NCBI GenBank assembly: GCA_018402765.1
Contig: JAGYIE010000001.1
Coordinates: 372,001 to 436,000, forward strand
DNA from: Vicingaceae bacterium
GTDB taxonomy: Bacteria; Bacteroidota; Bacteroidia; Flavobacteriales_E; Vicingaceae
Reading direction: 5' to 3'
DNA: 64,000 nucleotides
Below are positions 8,569 through 52,126 of this stretch, one piece after another. The notes beneath the pieces were generated by a model. It was not told the origin of the DNA and did no database searches. It saw only the letters and a program-made list of their open reading frames with translations. The stretch's first letter is position 1; every line of letters begins with the position of its first letter. The position numbers and the translations under genes are program-made.

Positions 8569-9459
8569 ATGAAAAAAGTAGCAGTAATAGGCGCTGGAAC
8601 AATGGGAAATGGAATTGCTCATACCTTCGCACAAAGCGGGTACCTAGTTGCACTAATTGACCTTTCTCAAGCCTCTTTAGACAGAGGAATTGCAACCATA
8701 ACGAAAAATTTAGATCGTATGGTAATGAAAGAACGAATTTCTGAAACAGATAAAAATACAACGCTTGCTAACATTTCAACATTTACAAAAATAGAGGATG
8801 GTGTTGCTGGTGTAGATTTAGTGGTAGAAGCAGCTACTGAAAATGTAGATATAAAGCTATCCATATTTAAAAACTTAAGCGATATTACTCCTGATCATGT
8901 CATCTTAGCTTCAAACACCTCTTCTATTTCAATTACCAAAATCGGAGCAGCAACCAACCGACCTGATAAAGTAATTGGTATGCACTTTATGAATCCTGTA
9001 CCAATCATGAAGTTAGTAGAGATCATTAGAGGTTATGCTACTTCAGACAAGGTAACTAACTTAATAATGGAGACCTCTAAGAAATTAGGTAAAACTCCTG
9101 TAGAAGTAAATGATTACCCCGGGTTTGTAGCCAATAGAATATTAATGCCAATGATTAATGAAGCAATCATTACCTTACATGAAGGCGTTGCAGGTGTTGA
9201 AGAAATTGACACAGTAATGAAGTTAGGTATGGCTCACCCAATGGGACCTTTGCAATTAGCTGATTTTATCGGTTTAGATGTATGCTTATCAATTATGAAC
9301 GTGCTTTATGAAGGATTTGGAAACCCCAAGTATGCCCCTTGCCCACTATTGGTGAATATGGTAACCGCAGGTAAATTAGGTGTGAAGTCAGGAGAAGGAT
9401 TTTATAATCACACACATGGCACAAAAGAATTAATTGTAGCTGATTTCTTTAAGAAATAA
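8569..9459 (+). CDS. hbd: 3-hydroxybutyryl-CoA dehydrogenase
   Basis: 296 residues, typical for the short single-function enzyme. It interconverts 3-hydroxyacyl-CoA and 3-oxoacyl-CoA with NAD(P) in short-chain fatty-acid or butyrate/PHB metabolism. The Rossmann start VIGAGTMGNGIAHTFAQSG is clear, then LVVEAATEN, the catalytic-loop SNTSSISITKIGAAT, HFMNPVPIMKLVEIIRG with the catalytic His, and the helical C-domain (GFVANRILMPMINEAI, GPLQLADFIGLD). It has its own promoter box and terminator, so it is probably monocistronic. Confidence 0.95.
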   Translation: MKKVAVIGAGTMGNGIAHTFAQSGYLVALIDLSQASLDRGIATITKNLDRMVMKERISETDKNTTLANISTFTKIEDGVAGVDLVVEAATENVDIKLSIFKNLSDITPDHVILASNTSSISITKIGAATNRPDKVIGMHFMNPVPIMKLVEIIRGYATSDKVTNLIMETSKKLGKTPVEVNDYPGFVANRILMPMINEAIITLHEGVAGVEEIDTVMKLGMAHPMGPLQLADFIGLDVCLSIMNVLYEGFGNPKYAPCPLLVNMVTAGKLGVKSGEGFYNHTHGTKELIVADFFKK

Positions 9460-9480
9460 TCAATTCATCACATAGCAATT

Positions 9481-9510
9481 AAAAGGAAGCTCCATTGCTT
9501 CCTTTTTTTT
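9481..9510 (+). terminator. Rho-independent terminator of hbd
   Basis: A perfect 10-bp stem (9481-9490 with 9497-9506), 6-base loop and eight T in a row, 21 bases past the hbd stop codon. Confidence 0.9.
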
Positions 9511-9553
9511 ATGGAACTTTGTAATCACTTCACGGCAAATAAAAACAAGCATC

Positions 9554-10726
9554 ATGGGAAAAGAGCATTTTGAGATAGTCGTTACTACACTATTAGGATT
9601 AGAGGATGTATTACAAAAGGAATTAGAAGATATTGGCGTTCGCTCACCAGAACTATTAGGTCGTGCTGTTAAGTTTTTTGGAAACCAAGAGTATCTTTAT
9701 AGATGTAATTATGAGCTGCGCACGGGTCTGAGAGTATTGCGCCCCCTTAGCACGTTTAAAGTTCATACTGAAGATGAATTATATAGAAAAATTCAGCGAA
9801 TAGATTGGTCTCAATACCTAAATAATAATAAAACGTTTGCAGTAGACGCTACTACTTACGGTACATTATTTACTCATTCTAAATATATTGCTTTAAAGAC
9901 TAAAGATGCAATAGTCGATCAATTTAGAGATAAAACAGGTGCGCGTCCTTCTATTGATGTTGCTCGCCCATCTGTAAAAATAAACGTGCATATTGCTCAT
10001 GATGAATGTACTATTTCTTTGGATAGCTCTGGTGTTCCACTTTCTAAAAGAGGTTATAAGACAGAACAAACTTTTGCACCACTCTCTGAAGTATTAGCTG
10101 CAGGAATGATTCTAAAAAGTAATTGGGATAAGAACTCTACTTTTTATGATCCAATGTGTGGTTCAGGAACTATAGCGATAGAGGCTGCATTAATTGCTAC
10201 TCAAACACCTCCTGGAGGATATAGAAACTTTGGTTTCGAAACGTGGTTTGATTTTGATGCTGAGCTATATGAATCTGTAAAGTTAAGAGCAGAATCTAGA
10301 GTGAGAAGAATCGATTTTCGAGTAAATGGCAGTGATATGGATGAAAAAGCTATAGAGATTGCCAGAAATAATGCTAGAAGAGCGCGCATCAGCAGAAATG
10401 TTCAATTCTTCAAAGCCGATTTTCTTAAAAGCAATCCTGAAATGCACGATGGTGTTATCATTATGAATCCACCCTATGGAGAGCGTATTGGTACGAATGA
10501 AGACATGATTTCTTTATACCAAGCAATTGGTGATCAACTAAAGACCCATTACAGTGGTGCTGATGCTTGGATTTTGAGCGGAAACGTTCAAGCTTTAAAG
10601 TTAATAGGATTAGCTGCAGCTAAACGTATACGCTTAAACAACGGACCTATCGAATGTAAATACCATCATTTCCCATTGTATAAAGGATCTAAAGAAGAAA
10701 AAGTTAAAATAGAAATTACTGACTAA
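9554..10726 (+). CDS. THUMP-domain class I RNA methyltransferase (RlmL N-half / YpsC type)
   Basis: 390 residues. The N-terminal third is ferredoxin-like plus THUMP (residues ~60-160). The methyltransferase domain follows, with YDPMCGSGTIAIEAALIA as the SAM loop and MNPPYGERIG as the NPPY catalytic motif for guanine N2 methylation. It matches the family of the first half of E. coli RlmL (m2G2445 in 23S rRNA) and B. subtilis YpsC, without the second RlmK half. It probably modifies 23S rRNA. Its last 11 bases overlap the convergent DUF4294 gene. Confidence 0.9.
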   Translation: MGKEHFEIVVTTLLGLEDVLQKELEDIGVRSPELLGRAVKFFGNQEYLYRCNYELRTGLRVLRPLSTFKVHTEDELYRKIQRIDWSQYLNNNKTFAVDATTYGTLFTHSKYIALKTKDAIVDQFRDKTGARPSIDVARPSVKINVHIAHDECTISLDSSGVPLSKRGYKTEQTFAPLSEVLAAGMILKSNWDKNSTFYDPMCGSGTIAIEAALIATQTPPGGYRNFGFETWFDFDAELYESVKLRAESRVRRIDFRVNGSDMDEKAIEIARNNARRARISRNVQFFKADFLKSNPEMHDGVIIMNPPYGERIGTNEDMISLYQAIGDQLKTHYSGADAWILSGNVQALKLIGLAAAKRIRLNNGPIECKYHHFPLYKGSKEEKVKIEITD

Positions 10727-11357
10727 CCGCAGTTTTTTGGCCTCTTTTATCATAAGGAATTACACCGCTTTCAAGCATCTGAACAATATGCTCAATGTCT
10801 CTATCTTCTCCTTTGGGGTCATATTTGAGTTTGAGGTTTTGGCCAAATAAGCGTGCCATTGATTGCCATAAAAATGCAGATAATGAACCTCGAAGTTGTT
10901 TTACTAAATCATAAGACGACTCTCCTGTTTCACGATCAATAAGTTTTACTAGGATAACTCCTTGCATTACAGTAAGCGTTTTTAACTCTCCTTCAAATTC
11001 TTCTTTTAGCTCCCCTTCTACTTTTTTCATATAGGCTTTTCTTCGCACTTCATTTTTTATAGTAGTCAAAGTATCGTCATAGTTCTTTAGAAGTGCACCA
11101 GCAAGTTCAGCGTATGGATAAGCTTTCGTAACATAACGCTCTAATCGATCATATCTACGACGATCTGCATTTGATTTAAATTGCCGACGTTCAACGACAT
11201 TAACACTTCCTAAATTCATGGTAGGTAAAGAATCTCCATTAATTACTGTAACCGGCAACGATTTCCTACTATCTTCCTGAGATACTATTCGCTCACTTCT
11301 GATCAATAAAAGAAGTAAGAAAGTGATAAACAAAAGATTTTGGATCATTTTGGGCAT
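10716..11357 (-). CDS. DUF4294 secreted/periplasmic protein
   Basis: 213 residues, with an N-terminal hydrophobic signal (LLFITFLLLLLI) and then a charged helical body. RRYDRLERYVTKAYPYAELA, MQGVILVKLIDRETGESSYD and LRGSLSAFLWQSMARLFGQN are characteristic of DUF4294, a Bacteroidota-specific family of unknown function. The start is uncertain: the promoter box at 11362-11369 would begin transcription almost on the ATG at 11357, so the ATG at 11348, right before the signal peptide, may be used instead. It is tail-to-tail with the RNA methyltransferase gene. Confidence 0.85.
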   Translation of the reverse strand: MPKMIQNLLFITFLLLLLIRSERIVSQEDSRKSLPVTVINGDSLPTMNLGSVNVVERRQFKSNADRRRYDRLERYVTKAYPYAELAGALLKNYDDTLTTIKNEVRRKAYMKKVEGELKEEFEGELKTLTVMQGVILVKLIDRETGESSYDLVKQLRGSLSAFLWQSMARLFGQNLKLKYDPKGEDRDIEHIVQMLESGVIPYDKRGQKTAVSQ

Positions 11358-11361
11358 AATT

Positions 11362-11369
11362 CAAAGGTA
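11362..11369 (-). promoter_or_regulatory. -7 promoter box (TACCTTTG) for the DUF4294 gene
   Basis: A TAnnTTTG match on the minus strand, only 4 bases before the first possible ATG. The transcript would be leaderless or start at the second ATG (11348). Confidence 0.5.
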
Positions 11370-11513
11370 ATATTTTGAGCATTACTAAAATCATACCTAT
11401 TTATACAAGTAATGTATAAAAACATCAATAGATTGTTTTTTAGTATCTCCAGAATGCTGTAATTTCATAGTCGGTTGATTTAAATTTTATTGATTGATTC
11501 CTACTTAAATTTA

Positions 11514-11521
11514 TAAATTTG
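11514..11521 (+). promoter_or_regulatory. -7 promoter box (TAAATTTG) for tsaC
   Basis: A full TAnnTTTG match ending only 4 bases before the tsaC ATG. The start site would be at or next to the ATG, suggesting a leaderless mRNA. Confidence 0.5.
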
Positions 11522-11525
11522 CAAA

Positions 11526-12089
11526 ATGAAAGAAGCAATTGAACAAGCAGTCGCAGCATTAAATGAAGGCAAAACAATACTCTATCCTAGTGACTCCATT
11601 TGGGGATTAGGATGTGACGCTACCAATCAGGAAGCGGTAGAGCGTATTTTTGCACTAAAAAAACGGGCTGACTCTAAAAGTTTAATTGTTTTAGTAGCTG
11701 ACGACGCGATGCTCAATAAATTTTTAAAAGACATTCCTCCAATTGCTTGGGATTTAATCGATTCAGCAGATCAACCATTAACCATCATTTATCCTGAAGG
11801 AAAAAACTTAGCGAAAGGCGTAATTGCAGATGATGGCAGTGTAGCCATACGTTTTGTAAAAGATGAATTTTGCTCACAGCTAATTAAACGATTTAGAAAA
11901 CCAATAGTTAGTACATCTGCCAATTTATCAGGCACTTACACTCCGCTTAGTTACTTAGAAATTGCTGCTGATTTTAAAGCTCAAATTGACCATGAAGTGA
12001 ACCTTTATCAACTAAAAGGGCAGAGCGGAAAACCTTCAGCCATAATAAAATTGGCTATGAATGGAGAAATTCAAGTAATAAGGAAGTAG
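11526..12089 (+). CDS. tsaC: Threonylcarbamoyl-AMP synthase (YrdC/Sua5 domain)
   Basis: 187 residues, the length of the single-domain TsaC form without the Sua5 C-terminal extension. It makes threonylcarbamoyl-adenylate from threonine, bicarbonate and ATP, the first step of t6A37 synthesis in ANN-decoding tRNAs. Motifs: TILYPSDSIWGLGCDATNQE, IFALKKRADSKSLIVLV with the KR.xxKP-like loop, and VSTSANLSGT. It heads a run of tRNA-related genes (cca and miaA downstream). Confidence 0.93.
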   Translation: MKEAIEQAVAALNEGKTILYPSDSIWGLGCDATNQEAVERIFALKKRADSKSLIVLVADDAMLNKFLKDIPPIAWDLIDSADQPLTIIYPEGKNLAKGVIADDGSVAIRFVKDEFCSQLIKRFRKPIVSTSANLSGTYTPLSYLEIAADFKAQIDHEVNLYQLKGQSGKPSAIIKLAMNGEIQVIRK

Positions 12090-12105
12090 AGTTTTCAGAA
12101 AAGAG

Positions 12106-12113
12106 TAATTTTG
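12106..12113 (+). promoter_or_regulatory. -7 promoter box (TAATTTTG) before cca
   Basis: A TAnnTTTG match 11 bases before the GTG start of cca, so cca can be transcribed separately from tsaC. Confidence 0.45.
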
Positions 12114-12124
12114 CAAAAAAAATA

Positions 12125-13543
12125 GTGCGCTTGGAAACCTCTTTCGATTTATCACATCCTATCTTCAAAATCATACAACAATCGGCTGATGAACTGGGTA
12201 TTGATGCTTACGTAATTGGTGGCTTTGTTCGTGATTTAGTATTAAATCGACCGAGTAAGGATATCGATATTGTAACCGTTGGCAGCGGTATTGAGCTAGC
12301 TAAAGCTGTAGCTAAAACGATAGGTCCTAAAACCAAAGTCAATATATTCAAGAATTTCGGTACTGCAATGCTTAACTATAAAGGTTATGAGGTTGAATTT
12401 GTGGGTGCTAGAAAGGAAAGCTATAATCGAGATAGCCGTAATCCTATAGTTGAGGATGGAACCCTAGAAGATGATCAAAACAGAAGAGACTTTACCATTA
12501 ATGCTATGGCAATAAGCTTAAAAGGTGAACACTTTGGTGCACTAATCGATCCATTTTTAGGTATAAAAGACATTGAAAACAAACGAATAGTAACACCATT
12601 GGATCCAGAAATTACTTACTCTGATGACCCTTTGCGAATGATGAGAGCCATTCGGTTTGCAAGTCAACTAAATTTTACGATCGACCCCATTTCACTTGCA
12701 GCAATAAGAGCACAAAAAGAGCGTATTAAAATTGTTTCTCAAGAAAGGATTTCAGATGAATTAAATAAAATAATTTTATCTCCAACGCCTTCAGTTGGAT
12801 TTAATTTATTGTTTGATACTGGTATTTTAGCTATAATTTTCCCACAAATGACTGCACTTTATGGGGTAGAAATAATCGACGGGAAAGGACATAAAGATAA
12901 TTTTTATCATACGCTGCAAGTCTTGGACAACATTAGCGAGCACACAACCGATTTATGGCTTAGATGGGCAGCAATACTGCATGATATTGCAAAGCCACCA
13001 ACCAAAAGATTTGAAAAACAAATAGGTTGGACTTTTCACGGACATGAAGACAGAGGAGCTCAAATGGTTCCAAAAATTTTCAAATCGTTAAAATTACCAC
13101 TAGATCATAAGATGAAATACGTGCAGAAGCTCGTAAAATTACATTTAAGGCCTATATCATTAGTAAAAGATAGCGTTACGGATTCAGCATTGCGCAGACT
13201 CCTGTATGACGCAGGTGATGATATTGATGATCTGATGACCTTGTGTAATGCAGATATTACCACCAAAAATGTGCGCAAACAAGAAAAGTATGCACAAAAC
13301 TTTCAGATTGTTAAAGAAAAGTTAGTTGCCACAGAAGAAAAAGATAGGCTTCGCAATTGGCAACCTCCAGTTAGTGGAGAACTAATTATGGAAACATTTG
13401 ATCTAGAGCCATCAAAAGCTGTTGGAGATATTAAAAATGCAATTCGAGAAGCAATTTTAGATGGAGATATTCAAAATAATTTTGAAGAAGCTCACGAATT
13501 TATGTTGAACTTAGGAAAACAAATGGGACTTACTCCCCAATAA
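12125..13543 (+). CDS. cca: CCA-adding tRNA nucleotidyltransferase with HD domain
   Basis: 472 residues from a GTG start; a TTG two codons later is an alternative. It adds or repairs the 3'-terminal CCA of tRNAs from CTP and ATP. The class II nucleotidyltransferase head shows YVIGGFVRDLVLNRPSKDID with the DxD metal pair, RRDFTINAMAI, and DPLRMMRAIRFASQL. The C-terminal half carries an HD phosphohydrolase domain (WAAILHDIAKPPT, FHGHED), as in many bacterial Cca and poly(A)-polymerase-family proteins. It may be cotranscribed with the genes downstream; the gap to the next start is 8 bases. Confidence 0.93.
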   Translation: MRLETSFDLSHPIFKIIQQSADELGIDAYVIGGFVRDLVLNRPSKDIDIVTVGSGIELAKAVAKTIGPKTKVNIFKNFGTAMLNYKGYEVEFVGARKESYNRDSRNPIVEDGTLEDDQNRRDFTINAMAISLKGEHFGALIDPFLGIKDIENKRIVTPLDPEITYSDDPLRMMRAIRFASQLNFTIDPISLAAIRAQKERIKIVSQERISDELNKIILSPTPSVGFNLLFDTGILAIIFPQMTALYGVEIIDGKGHKDNFYHTLQVLDNISEHTTDLWLRWAAILHDIAKPPTKRFEKQIGWTFHGHEDRGAQMVPKIFKSLKLPLDHKMKYVQKLVKLHLRPISLVKDSVTDSALRRLLYDAGDDIDDLMTLCNADITTKNVRKQEKYAQNFQIVKEKLVATEEKDRLRNWQPPVSGELIMETFDLEPSKAVGDIKNAIREAILDGDIQNNFEEAHEFMLNLGKQMGLTPQ

Positions 13544-49297: not shown

Positions 49298-51310
49298 TTA
49301 CTTTGAGGCAGAAAGCCTATAAAAGTGATGCATACTCAACACATGAGGCAAACTTAAACAGGAAAGAATAATGAAAAATAGACCTATATAATTTTCATTA
49401 GCATAAAATAGAAAATAGAAAATAATACCTGCTCCACCAATTGTAAATGGCAAGGCATTTTTCAACATTACTGATGAATCTTTATCTAAACCAACAGAAA
49501 GGTGTTTCCATCCATTGATGCTGTGCTGCAAGATAAAATAGATGCCAAATGTCATCAATAAAGACAATTGACTTGCCATTAATAGATAAATTAATGTGAT
49601 TAGTAGATAATAAGATTTGTTTACTCGTGCCAAAATAATTCCAAAAGTAACGGTCAATACCTGTATAAACAATATCGCATTCTGAGGTAGTTCATAAAGT
49701 AGACTCACCATAGATAGATTTGGAATTTGGCTAAGAACCTCGCTTAATTCTTTTGTATGAAAAAAGAGTATCATTGTTAACACAATAACTCCCCAAAATA
49801 AGGATTGACCTCCTTGCTTTAAGTTCCATTCTTTAAAATCTGCTTGTCCAAAGTGCCAAGCAGAATAAAGTATAAAAAGCACCAGAGCAATATCGGAAGA
49901 GATCCACCAAACAAGACCAAAAAGTGCCCCCTTAACTAGATAGTTTAGAACAAAATAAATAAGTTGTTTGCCTGATGTAATTTTTTGAGCAGTAAGATGA
50001 TCTAAAGCTCCATGCGCTAATCCTATTGATAAAAATCCTAGAGCTAGAATACCCCAAGCAATAAAATCAACTTGTAAGAAAGAAAGCAGGATAGCAAAAG
50101 CTGTAAATATAAAAGGCAATGCAACGGTTGGTAGTCGATTTATTTGCTGAGCAATATCCCTTAAAGCTGCTGTTATAAATAGCTTTTTGGGCAATTTAGA
50201 GAAGATAACTACTTCTTCCGAAAGTGTGGTTTGTTCTCTTAAAAACCTCAATACGTTTATAGCAGGGACATTTTTAAATAACGATTCAAAGACTTTTTTT
50301 CCTTGTAAAGGAGTATTGCTTAATATTTTCAATAGCAATCGGTCGTAAAACGAAAACCTTTTTTTCTTTTCCTCTCGTTTCAGTTTCTGATTGTTTTTTA
50401 TTGCTTCTGTTTGCAAAATCGCATCTGCAGCCATGGAATGAAAAGCATAACCTGTTGAGCATTTTAATAGGTTGGCGCGAACTCCCATAGGGATCCAATT
50501 TTCGCCATAATCAGCTGCATCAATTTTTCCTGAAGACATAGGAATGACGCCGACTTCATCTGCTAACTTTTCATAGGTAGTACCCAATTGATTCACATAA
50601 TCTTGAAGAATAGAATTGGCCTCATCTTCGGTTAACTTATCTTTGCCAAATCGGGTTAATTCTATGAGTGCTGTATCACGCTCAAATGGCAAAACATAAA
50701 CAAATTGTGTAACATCAGTTTGAGGAACTTTAAAATCCATCATAACCATAGAGGTGGTATCAAATACTTGTTTATCCGTTTTGATTTTCCATCCGTAAAA
50801 TGATTGGTATAAATGACTTTGGTTCTTTTGTAGTTTAGAAAATGTAGGCGGTCTACTATCAAAAACTTTGTGGCAATACAACACAGATTCTCCAACAGTT
50901 ACTGCTATATAATCAACATTGATGGTCGGAATACACTCTAAGGTACTTCGAAAATAAGTAACCTCGTTAAGGTTTAAAATTTCTTTTGTTTTTTGGGTAA
51001 AATCAGTGCCTTTAATATGATAATAGCTTAACGGCTGTATGCTTTGTTTGGTGATACCTGTAATCTCAATTTGTTGCCAACTGTAGCTAACCAACCCTTC
51101 CAGATTCAAGGCAAAAAGCTCTTCTTTTGTGGACCAAAAACAGAATGTTTTATCATCTGTTAATTTACTGCTTGGATCGATTATAGCAATCGATTTTCCT
51201 TCGAGAAGCCCGTTTTTATAAAGACTTAAAATCTGCAAACTATTAGCGGCACCAAGTCCTATAAATAGGAAATCATATACTGAAGATGTTTTGGCTAAAA
51301 CAGAATGCAT
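49298..51310 (-). CDS. CrtY-Blh fusion: lycopene beta-cyclase joined to beta-carotene 15,15'-dioxygenase
   Basis: 670 residues. Residues ~10-385 are a CrtY-type flavoprotein cyclase: YDFLFIGLGAANSL (dinucleotide fold), FCFWS, DSRPP (151-155), SFYGWKIKTDKQVFDTTSMV and MDFKVPQ, then RFLREQTTLSEEVVIFSKLP near its end. Residues ~395-670 are a multi-helix Brp/Blh dioxygenase with iron-ligand His: LAHGALDHLT (His433, His438), YSAWHFGQAD (His486), QHSINGWKHL (His596, His603), LPHVLSMHHFYRL (His656, His661, His662). One chain would thus convert lycopene to beta-carotene and cleave it to retinal. It lies 84 bases after the rhodopsin gene; crtE/B/I are not in this window. Confidence 0.92.
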   Translation of the reverse strand: MHSVLAKTSSVYDFLFIGLGAANSLQILSLYKNGLLEGKSIAIIDPSSKLTDDKTFCFWSTKEELFALNLEGLVSYSWQQIEITGITKQSIQPLSYYHIKGTDFTQKTKEILNLNEVTYFRSTLECIPTINVDYIAVTVGESVLYCHKVFDSRPPTFSKLQKNQSHLYQSFYGWKIKTDKQVFDTTSMVMMDFKVPQTDVTQFVYVLPFERDTALIELTRFGKDKLTEDEANSILQDYVNQLGTTYEKLADEVGVIPMSSGKIDAADYGENWIPMGVRANLLKCSTGYAFHSMAADAILQTEAIKNNQKLKREEKKKRFSFYDRLLLKILSNTPLQGKKVFESLFKNVPAINVLRFLREQTTLSEEVVIFSKLPKKLFITAALRDIAQQINRLPTVALPFIFTAFAILLSFLQVDFIAWGILALGFLSIGLAHGALDHLTAQKITSGKQLIYFVLNYLVKGALFGLVWWISSDIALVLFILYSAWHFGQADFKEWNLKQGGQSLFWGVIVLTMILFFHTKELSEVLSQIPNLSMVSLLYELPQNAILFIQVLTVTFGIILARVNKSYYLLITLIYLLMASQLSLLMTFGIYFILQHSINGWKHLSVGLDKDSSVMLKNALPFTIGGAGIIFYFLFYANENYIGLFFIILSCLSLPHVLSMHHFYRLSASK

Positions 51311-51340
51311 AATTTGTCCTGTAAAGAATTGTGTTGCATA

Positions 51341-51377
51341 AAAAAGGGATGATAATTATTCAACTATCACCCCTTTT
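51341..51377 (-). terminator. Terminator/attenuator between rhodopsin and crtY-blh
   Basis: A 13-bp stem (51342-51354 with 51365-51377, one G-U wobble), 10-base loop, then six T on the minus strand. It begins 17 bases past the rhodopsin stop codon and ends 30 bases before the crtY-blh ATG. I found no separate TAnnTTTG box for crtY-blh, so read-through is likely to supply it. Confidence 0.8.
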
Positions 51378-51394
51378 CTTTTATTTATATGTTA

Positions 51395-52126
51395 TTATGC
51401 TTTAACGGTAGATTCATCTGTTCTGCTCAATGCATAGATCACTAAACCGAAACCGATTTTGTTTATCGCATCTGCAATATTGTAAACAATATCCATAGCG
51501 TTAAGCGCTGCAGCAGTGTCAGAAACTAACTGAATGCCAAACAAACCACCTGGAGTTCCTAGTATGTAACCTAAAGGGTAAATAGCCCAACCAACTAACA
51601 CGAACCAACCAAGAACTTTTGTCGCTTTTGCCACTTGAGCACCTGCTGATTGAGCAAGTTTTGAAACTTCTCCAAACCAAACTAAGTATACGATGTAAAA
51701 ATAAGCGATACCTGATATCACACCCCAAAGTACACTGCTATCTCTATCGAGAACTTCACCTACGTACCCTGTTACTAACATCACTAATGATGCAAAGATT
51801 AATTTCCAAAGCAAACCTATTTTTGCACCTGCTTTTTTGGTAATCAAGTAAAATTCCACGCACATTAACGGCACAGTCAAGATCCAATCAACATACCGGA
51901 AAAATGTAGGAGAATCACCAGTCTCTAGGTTGTAACTTCTCATGTAGTAGTAATGCACTGCTGCAATAAAAGTGATTAAGCCTGAAACAAGCACTGAGGT
52001 TCTCCACTGTTTAGAGGTGTTGTTCAACTCTAAAAAGAAAAATACTGATGCGGCCATCATAGCCATCGTTCCGATAAAGAACGTAAACGCAACATAATTG
52101 TCGCTTGCAATTTTTAAGTGTTCCAT
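51395..52126 (-). CDS. Green-type proton-pumping proteorhodopsin
   Basis: 243 residues, seven helices. Helix C reads RYVDWILTVPLMCVEFYLIT: Asp80 (Schiff-base proton acceptor), Thr84 and Glu91 (proton donor) give the DTE triad of outward proton pumps. Met88 is at the colour-tuning site (PR 105), the residue usual in green-absorbing flavobacterial rhodopsins. His58 matches PR His75. The retinal Lys is Lys223 in NIADAINKIGFGL, with Asp219 as the second counter-ion. No cleavable signal is evident. It pumps H+ in light at the inner membrane; retinal would come from the adjacent CrtY-Blh fusion. Confidence 0.96.
   Translation of the reverse strand: MEHLKIASDNYVAFTFFIGTMAMMAASVFFFLELNNTSKQWRTSVLVSGLITFIAAVHYYYMRSYNLETGDSPTFFRYVDWILTVPLMCVEFYLITKKAGAKIGLLWKLIFASLVMLVTGYVGEVLDRDSSVLWGVISGIAYFYIVYLVWFGEVSKLAQSAGAQVAKATKVLGWFVLVGWAIYPLGYILGTPGGLFGIQLVSDTAAALNAMDIVYNIADAINKIGFGLVIYALSRTDESTVKA

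Follow-up and report, generated by a model that had tools for sequence, protein, structure and literature searches.

One gene in the window, as we call the whole 64,000-nucleotide stretch of DNA analysed, joins a CrtY-type lycopene cyclase and a Brp/Blh-type dioxygenase in a single polypeptide. It is highly probable that this fusion acts as a bifunctional enzyme that converts lycopene into retinal for the adjoining rhodopsin, that it arose from an overlapping crtY-blh pair and that it works in parallel to a second lycopene cyclase. The fusion is a new combination of known parts, real, widespread and apparently undescribed. Sequence comparison documents the fusion itself, the intactness of its conserved residues, the selection acting on it, its linkage to rhodopsin and the near-universal presence of a second cyclase in the genomes that carry it.

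A cyclase and a dioxygenase in one open frame

From 49298 to 51310 the minus strand is one uninterrupted frame of 670 codons, and the plus strand of the same region is full of stops. The original prediction had given this continuous frame with exact coordinates and length, to which the strand can now be added. The calculated mass of the fusion protein is 76.0 kDa. The gene, its parts and its upstream neighbours are the following:

49298..51310, minus strand: CrtY-Blh fusion gene, 670 codons with a 76 kDa product, recognised by its single open frame, domain matches and mass
50186..51274, minus strand: CrtY-type lycopene cyclase domain, residues 13-375, recognised by Pfam, the G18/G20 FAD-fold motif, E217 and a fold match
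50036..50185, minus strand: inter-domain linker, residues 376-425, with no in-frame ATG, GTG or stop and under purifying selection
49328..50035, minus strand: Brp/Blh dioxygenase domain, residues 426-661, recognised by Pfam BCD, TIGR03753, conserved residues and a model with pLDDT 93
51342..51377, minus strand: terminator-like hairpin with a T-run, -18.3 kcal/mol, within the 84 bp that separate rhodopsin and fusion
51395..52126, minus strand: proteorhodopsin-type proton pump with D80/T84/E91, retinal lysine K223, M88 and fenestration glycine G135

The claim that a full cyclase is followed by a full dioxygenase is borne out by both Pfam profiles, which are matched across their whole length. Lycopene_cycl (PF05834) aligns to residues 13-375 with 176.5 bits against a cut-off of 23.4, covering profile positions 1-372 of 380, and BCD aligns to residues 426-661 with 109.3 bits against a cut-off of 28. 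At the level of NCBIfam, the blh model TIGR03753 scores 125.4, above its cut-off of 95.25. The lycopene cyclase model TIGR01790 is matched at 103.4 bits, under its curated cut-off of 209.5, and the standalone cyclase of the same genome likewise falls under it with 98.4.

Since the linker holds no in-frame ATG or GTG and a single in-frame TTG, at residue 398, there is no obvious separate start from which a free Blh could be made. Between the gene of the window and its nearest homologues, dN/dS is about 0.1-0.2 for each half and rises somewhat in the linker, where a dN of 0.13 and a dS of 0.91 against the homologue of genome G026 still indicate purifying selection. Directly downstream of the fusion lies a DDE transposase gene (PF01609; 47889-48896, minus strand).

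Conserved residues and structure models

E217, within the LIE.T motif, is present in all 76 fused and unfused cyclases compared, and G18 and G20 are conserved as well. We take E217 to be the position of the catalytic glutamate in CrtY enzymes. In the dioxygenase half, 76 Blh domains, both fused and unfused, were compared: H433, H486, H596, H656 and D437 never vary in any sequence that covers the column, and H438 occurs in 47 of the 48 fused sequences but is often absent from standalone Blh proteins. The histidines originally proposed therefore hold in part: 433, 486 and 656 are invariant, 438 is partially kept, 661 and 662 are unconserved, and H596 had been missed. Four further residues distributed over both halves (Q202, R220, Q595 and W601) are common to the fused sequences and mostly missing in the unfused ones. 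Both halves look catalytically intact, and the two activities are predicted from family membership together with the conserved residues.

The AlphaFold model of the whole fusion (pLDDT 82) shows a FAD-type fold first and a helix bundle after it; its pTM of 0.64 is modest, so that structural support for a channel between the two is absent. The best structural relatives of the cyclase half are geranylgeranyl reductases, with a Z score of 21.6. Modelled alone (49301-50113), the Blh half gives an all-helical structure with a pLDDT of 93 and a pTM of 0.89, for which a Foldseek search found no solved relative in the PDB (best E 1.2). A phmmer search of the fusion against PDB sequences gave no match.

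Distribution of the fusion

The GTDB species collection, about 85,000 genomes, was scanned with an alignment of ten fusions. Among the best 80 of the 172 relatives both domains lie in one frame in every case, a few of these frames running off the contig end, and the loci come nearly all from metagenome-assembled genomes of Bacteroidota, many of them from lake, pond and sea. When 100 relatives were compared, the full-length fusion was found uninterrupted in nine genomes besides that of the window, at 37-79% identity. Of 396 genomes sampled evenly from the class to which the window belongs (Bacteroidia), 77 have a Blh match, and in 35 of these 77 Blh and cyclase are fused in an open frame of at least 650 codons. 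The original remark that this is not a standard arrangement is thus valid for the open-access literature and does not extend to the genomes. The 40 fusion genomes examined represent 11 families, and the fusion has been retained across deep divergence, down to about 35% identity. It was absent from the viral contigs, phages and plasmids searched.

Two loci depart from the continuous frame. Locus L144 (3556-5666, genome G308) has its cyclase and its Blh in separate frames with an overlap of 184 bases, although its close relatives are fused; this two-frame state is a frameshift, either real or derived from assembly. Genome G013, which has a rhodopsin and a standalone blh, contains on contig C12 (32950-33174) a fragment interrupted by many stops that shares 42% identity with residues 582-653 of the fusion, possibly a decayed fusion.

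Origin from an overlapping gene pair

In nine unfused crtY-blh pairs (L040, L136-L143) the two genes share 4-65 bases in different frames, and four of the pairs lie behind a rhodopsin. A branch with support 97 divides the cyclase tree into the Blh-linked cyclases, whether fused to Blh or encoded next to it, and 17 standalone ones; the fused set stands alone on one side of a weakly supported branch (69). The Blh tree unites all fused domains in one clade with support 100. This clade also holds the Blh of L172 (2239-3087, genome G253), a gene without an upstream cyclase nested among the fused forms, which has probably lost its cyclase half secondarily. The trees thus support one origin of the fusion and a cyclase lineage of its own for the Blh-linked forms. 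What fits best is that an overlapping pair fused once and then spread widely, with full support from the Blh tree and weaker support from the cyclase tree. The fused sequences do not sort by family: the families are mixed, and in the cyclase tree the gene of the window groups with that of G058, a genome of another family. This mixing suggests that the fusion may have been transferred horizontally.

A second lycopene cyclase in fusion genomes

It had been proposed that the fusion could commit all carotene to retinal in a cell lacking a free cyclase. This does not hold, since the genome of the window encodes a standalone CrtY (contig C12, 93190-94332; 29% identical to the fusion, PF05834 158 bits) and a second lycopene cyclase is found in 38 of the 40 fusion genomes. 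In 29 of them it is of the CrtYcd type (PF18916), a family unrelated to CrtY, in nine it is a standalone CrtY, and the two never occur together. No second cyclase was found in G033 (87% complete) or G358 (92% complete), both incomplete assemblies.

This number of cyclases goes with the linkage of blh. Exactly one cyclase was found in 27 of 28 genomes whose blh is unlinked to a cyclase gene, a count in which a second CrtY could be missed as CrtY was counted there from a protein search scoring top candidates only, and two cyclases were found in all nine genomes with an adjacent crtY-blh pair. The contrast between fused and unlinked genomes has a Fisher p of about 1e-15, a value that ignores kinship, and it persists within families f1, f53 (with one exception, G376) and f11.

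A search of the rest of the genome for carotenoid genes, as suggested with the original prediction, returned crtB and crtI besides the standalone crtY. The latter lies away from the idi-crtB-crtI cluster, which occupies positions 8800-13250 of locus L049 (contig C9) and has a MerR/B12-binding regulator nearby; the CrtI of this cluster scores above the cut-off of NF058655 (bifunctional phytoene desaturase/3,4-desaturase). In 12 fusion genomes (for instance at L203-L205 and L210-L213) CrtYcd is directly beside a small protein of about 150 amino acids that Pfam places only in FA_hydroxylase and to which NCBIfam gave no name. This protein resembles CrtZ, an identity that we infer, and together with CrtYcd it likely forms a branch towards hydroxylated carotenoids. 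In the genome of the window a PF04116 search detected no CrtZ-like hydroxylase. This search replaced a CrtZ motif pattern that had no positive control and gave three matches, none of them CrtZ on inspection.

The rhodopsin partner and the intervening hairpin

As originally noted, the fusion adjoins a rhodopsin; it lies downstream of it, at a distance of 84 bp. This proteorhodopsin is the sole rhodopsin of the genome and carries the D-T-E motif of proton pumps (D80, T84, E91) and the retinal-binding lysine K223. A rhodopsin is found in the examined flank at 44 of 80 fusion loci, in 40 cases immediately before the fusion and in the same orientation, and there is one rhodopsin in 39 of the 40 fusion genomes and in 34 of 34 good-quality ones. 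The rhodopsins linked to the fusion share the D-T-E triad and a methionine at the tuning site, and all 45 have the fenestration glycine (G135 in the window), a site assigned by alignment to W138 of bacteriorhodopsin. In xanthorhodopsins this glycine, Gly156 in SrXR and Gly153 in Kin4B8, admits a carotenoid antenna (PMC13093654). By this residue the rhodopsin of the window is perhaps a candidate for the carotenoid-antenna type, with putative carotenoid binding. When the window (49298-52126) is compared with locus L007 of genome G002, the rhodopsins are 96% identical with a dS of 0.87, whereas identity between the fusions is only about 49% and their dS is saturated. This difference points to separate histories of rhodopsin and fusion, with one of the two apparently replaced.

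Hairpins comparable to that at 51342-51377, whatever their sequence, occur in 38 of 43 gaps between rhodopsin and fusion and in none of the shuffles. They are also found in 12 of 13 gaps between rhodopsin and a standalone blh and in three of four between rhodopsin and crtY, compared with seven of 32 other co-directional gaps used as controls. These counts come from our own fold search with its shuffles and controls. The hairpin of the window is unlisted by a standard terminator scan, probably owing to the pairing of the T-run into the stem. The next start codon often follows the hairpin by only some 10-40 bases. The element is probably a leaky terminator, an attenuator or a 3'-end stabiliser; with such short spacing, the economical reading is a leaky terminator that would keep expression of the enzyme below that of rhodopsin. 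In agreement with this reading, transcription of the retinal genes has been reported to lie far below that of rhodopsin (PMC8386455) or to be only weak (PMC3587595). A Bacteroidota-type promoter pattern had no match upstream of rhodopsin or fusion, and Rfam gave no match.

Proposed function and alternative explanations

In the mechanism that we favour, the FAD-fold N-terminal half would cyclise lycopene to beta-carotene, the membrane-embedded C-terminal half would cleave beta-carotene into two retinals, and these would go to the neighbouring proteorhodopsin. The gene would have originated when an overlapping crtY-blh pair, probably coupled in translation, became joined in frame, and it would have spread among aquatic Bacteroidota, often together with rhodopsin. 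The separate second cyclase would supply the remainder of the carotenoid pathway, with pigments and perhaps an antenna carotenoid. A hand-over of beta-carotene within the protein is plausible, the fusion being the reason to propose it. These elements can be assembled into a more elaborate scheme for aquatic Bacteroidota, which we put forward tentatively and judge somewhat less probable than its opposite: lycopene would be split between a channelled, retinal-only fusion and a second cyclase (CrtYcd with the CrtZ-like hydroxylase, or a standalone CrtY) serving pigment and antenna carotenoid, and the leaky hairpin would set the ratio of rhodopsin to enzyme.

A non-channelling enzyme comes close to an even chance. 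Both steps would be active, beta-carotene would leave the enzyme for the membrane and be bound again, and the fusion would merely ensure equal amounts of the two enzymes. Unfused overlapping crtY-blh pairs serve the same niche, which may mean that selection favours co-expression, and L172 shows a Blh of the fused clade that does without a cyclase half; however, the residues peculiar to fused forms (Q202, R220, Q595, W601) hint at specialisation, and the fusion has persisted through a divergence down to about 35% identity. That the cyclase half is inactive, a membrane or substrate-binding module beside a dioxygenase fed with beta-carotene from the other cyclase, we consider unlikely. A second cyclase almost always present would make this half dispensable, and it was lost in L172, yet its motifs, E217 included, are invariant and selection on it is as strong as on the Blh half.

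The other two explanations fare worse. If the fusion were the only lycopene cyclase of the cell, all cyclic carotene would end as retinal, and in 31 of the 40 fusion genomes it is indeed the only full-length CrtY-type (PF05834) protein; but CrtYcd is present in 29 of those 31 and a standalone CrtY in the other nine genomes, that of the window among them, which refutes this reading as a general rule and leaves it very little room. A joining of two genes by sequencing or assembly error can be considered refuted, with a probability close to nil: a single indel error could fuse any of the nine overlapping pairs, but about 100 sequences drawn from many assemblies show the same open fusion, their domain envelopes being separated by a median of 11 residues.

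If active as proposed, the fusion would offer a ready-made two-step catalyst for retinal production. Retinal and the antenna and membrane carotenoids share precursors, and a fusion accompanied by a second cyclase would be a simple genetic answer to the problem of dividing them; the near-constant presence of this second cyclase adds interest to the fusion. At a practical level, surveys that count crtY and blh separately (PF05834 and PF15461, as in PMC8386455) score one fusion gene twice.

Comparison with known systems

No bacterial CrtY-Blh fusion was found in the open-access literature, subscription journals and preprints lying outside the search, and a list of known natural fusions names none (PMC10284914); the fusion is likely undescribed in print. 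The unfused crtY-blh pairs described above have the same gene order, belong to the same cyclase clade and are also accompanied by a second cyclase, and they differ in consisting of two overlapping frames. The proteorhodopsin-bearing flavobacteria of the Dokdonia type (PMC3587595) carry out the same two reactions for proteorhodopsin and have blh beside the rhodopsin gene, but their crtY and blh are two genes and crtY lies outside the rhodopsin region. Other fusions also join consecutive carotenoid enzymes, namely CrtIB of Verrucomicrobiota and the CrtBY and CrtIBY proteins (PMC10284914, PMC10016063), one of them within a rhodopsin cluster; unlike the fusion of the window, they cover earlier steps of the pathway and lack Blh. 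A four-domain eukaryotic protein (PMC10016063) likewise combines a lycopene cyclase with a C-terminal Blh and has been proposed to make retinal directly, but its cyclase is a membrane CrtYc/d, from an unrelated family, and it includes a desaturase and a phytoene synthase in addition.
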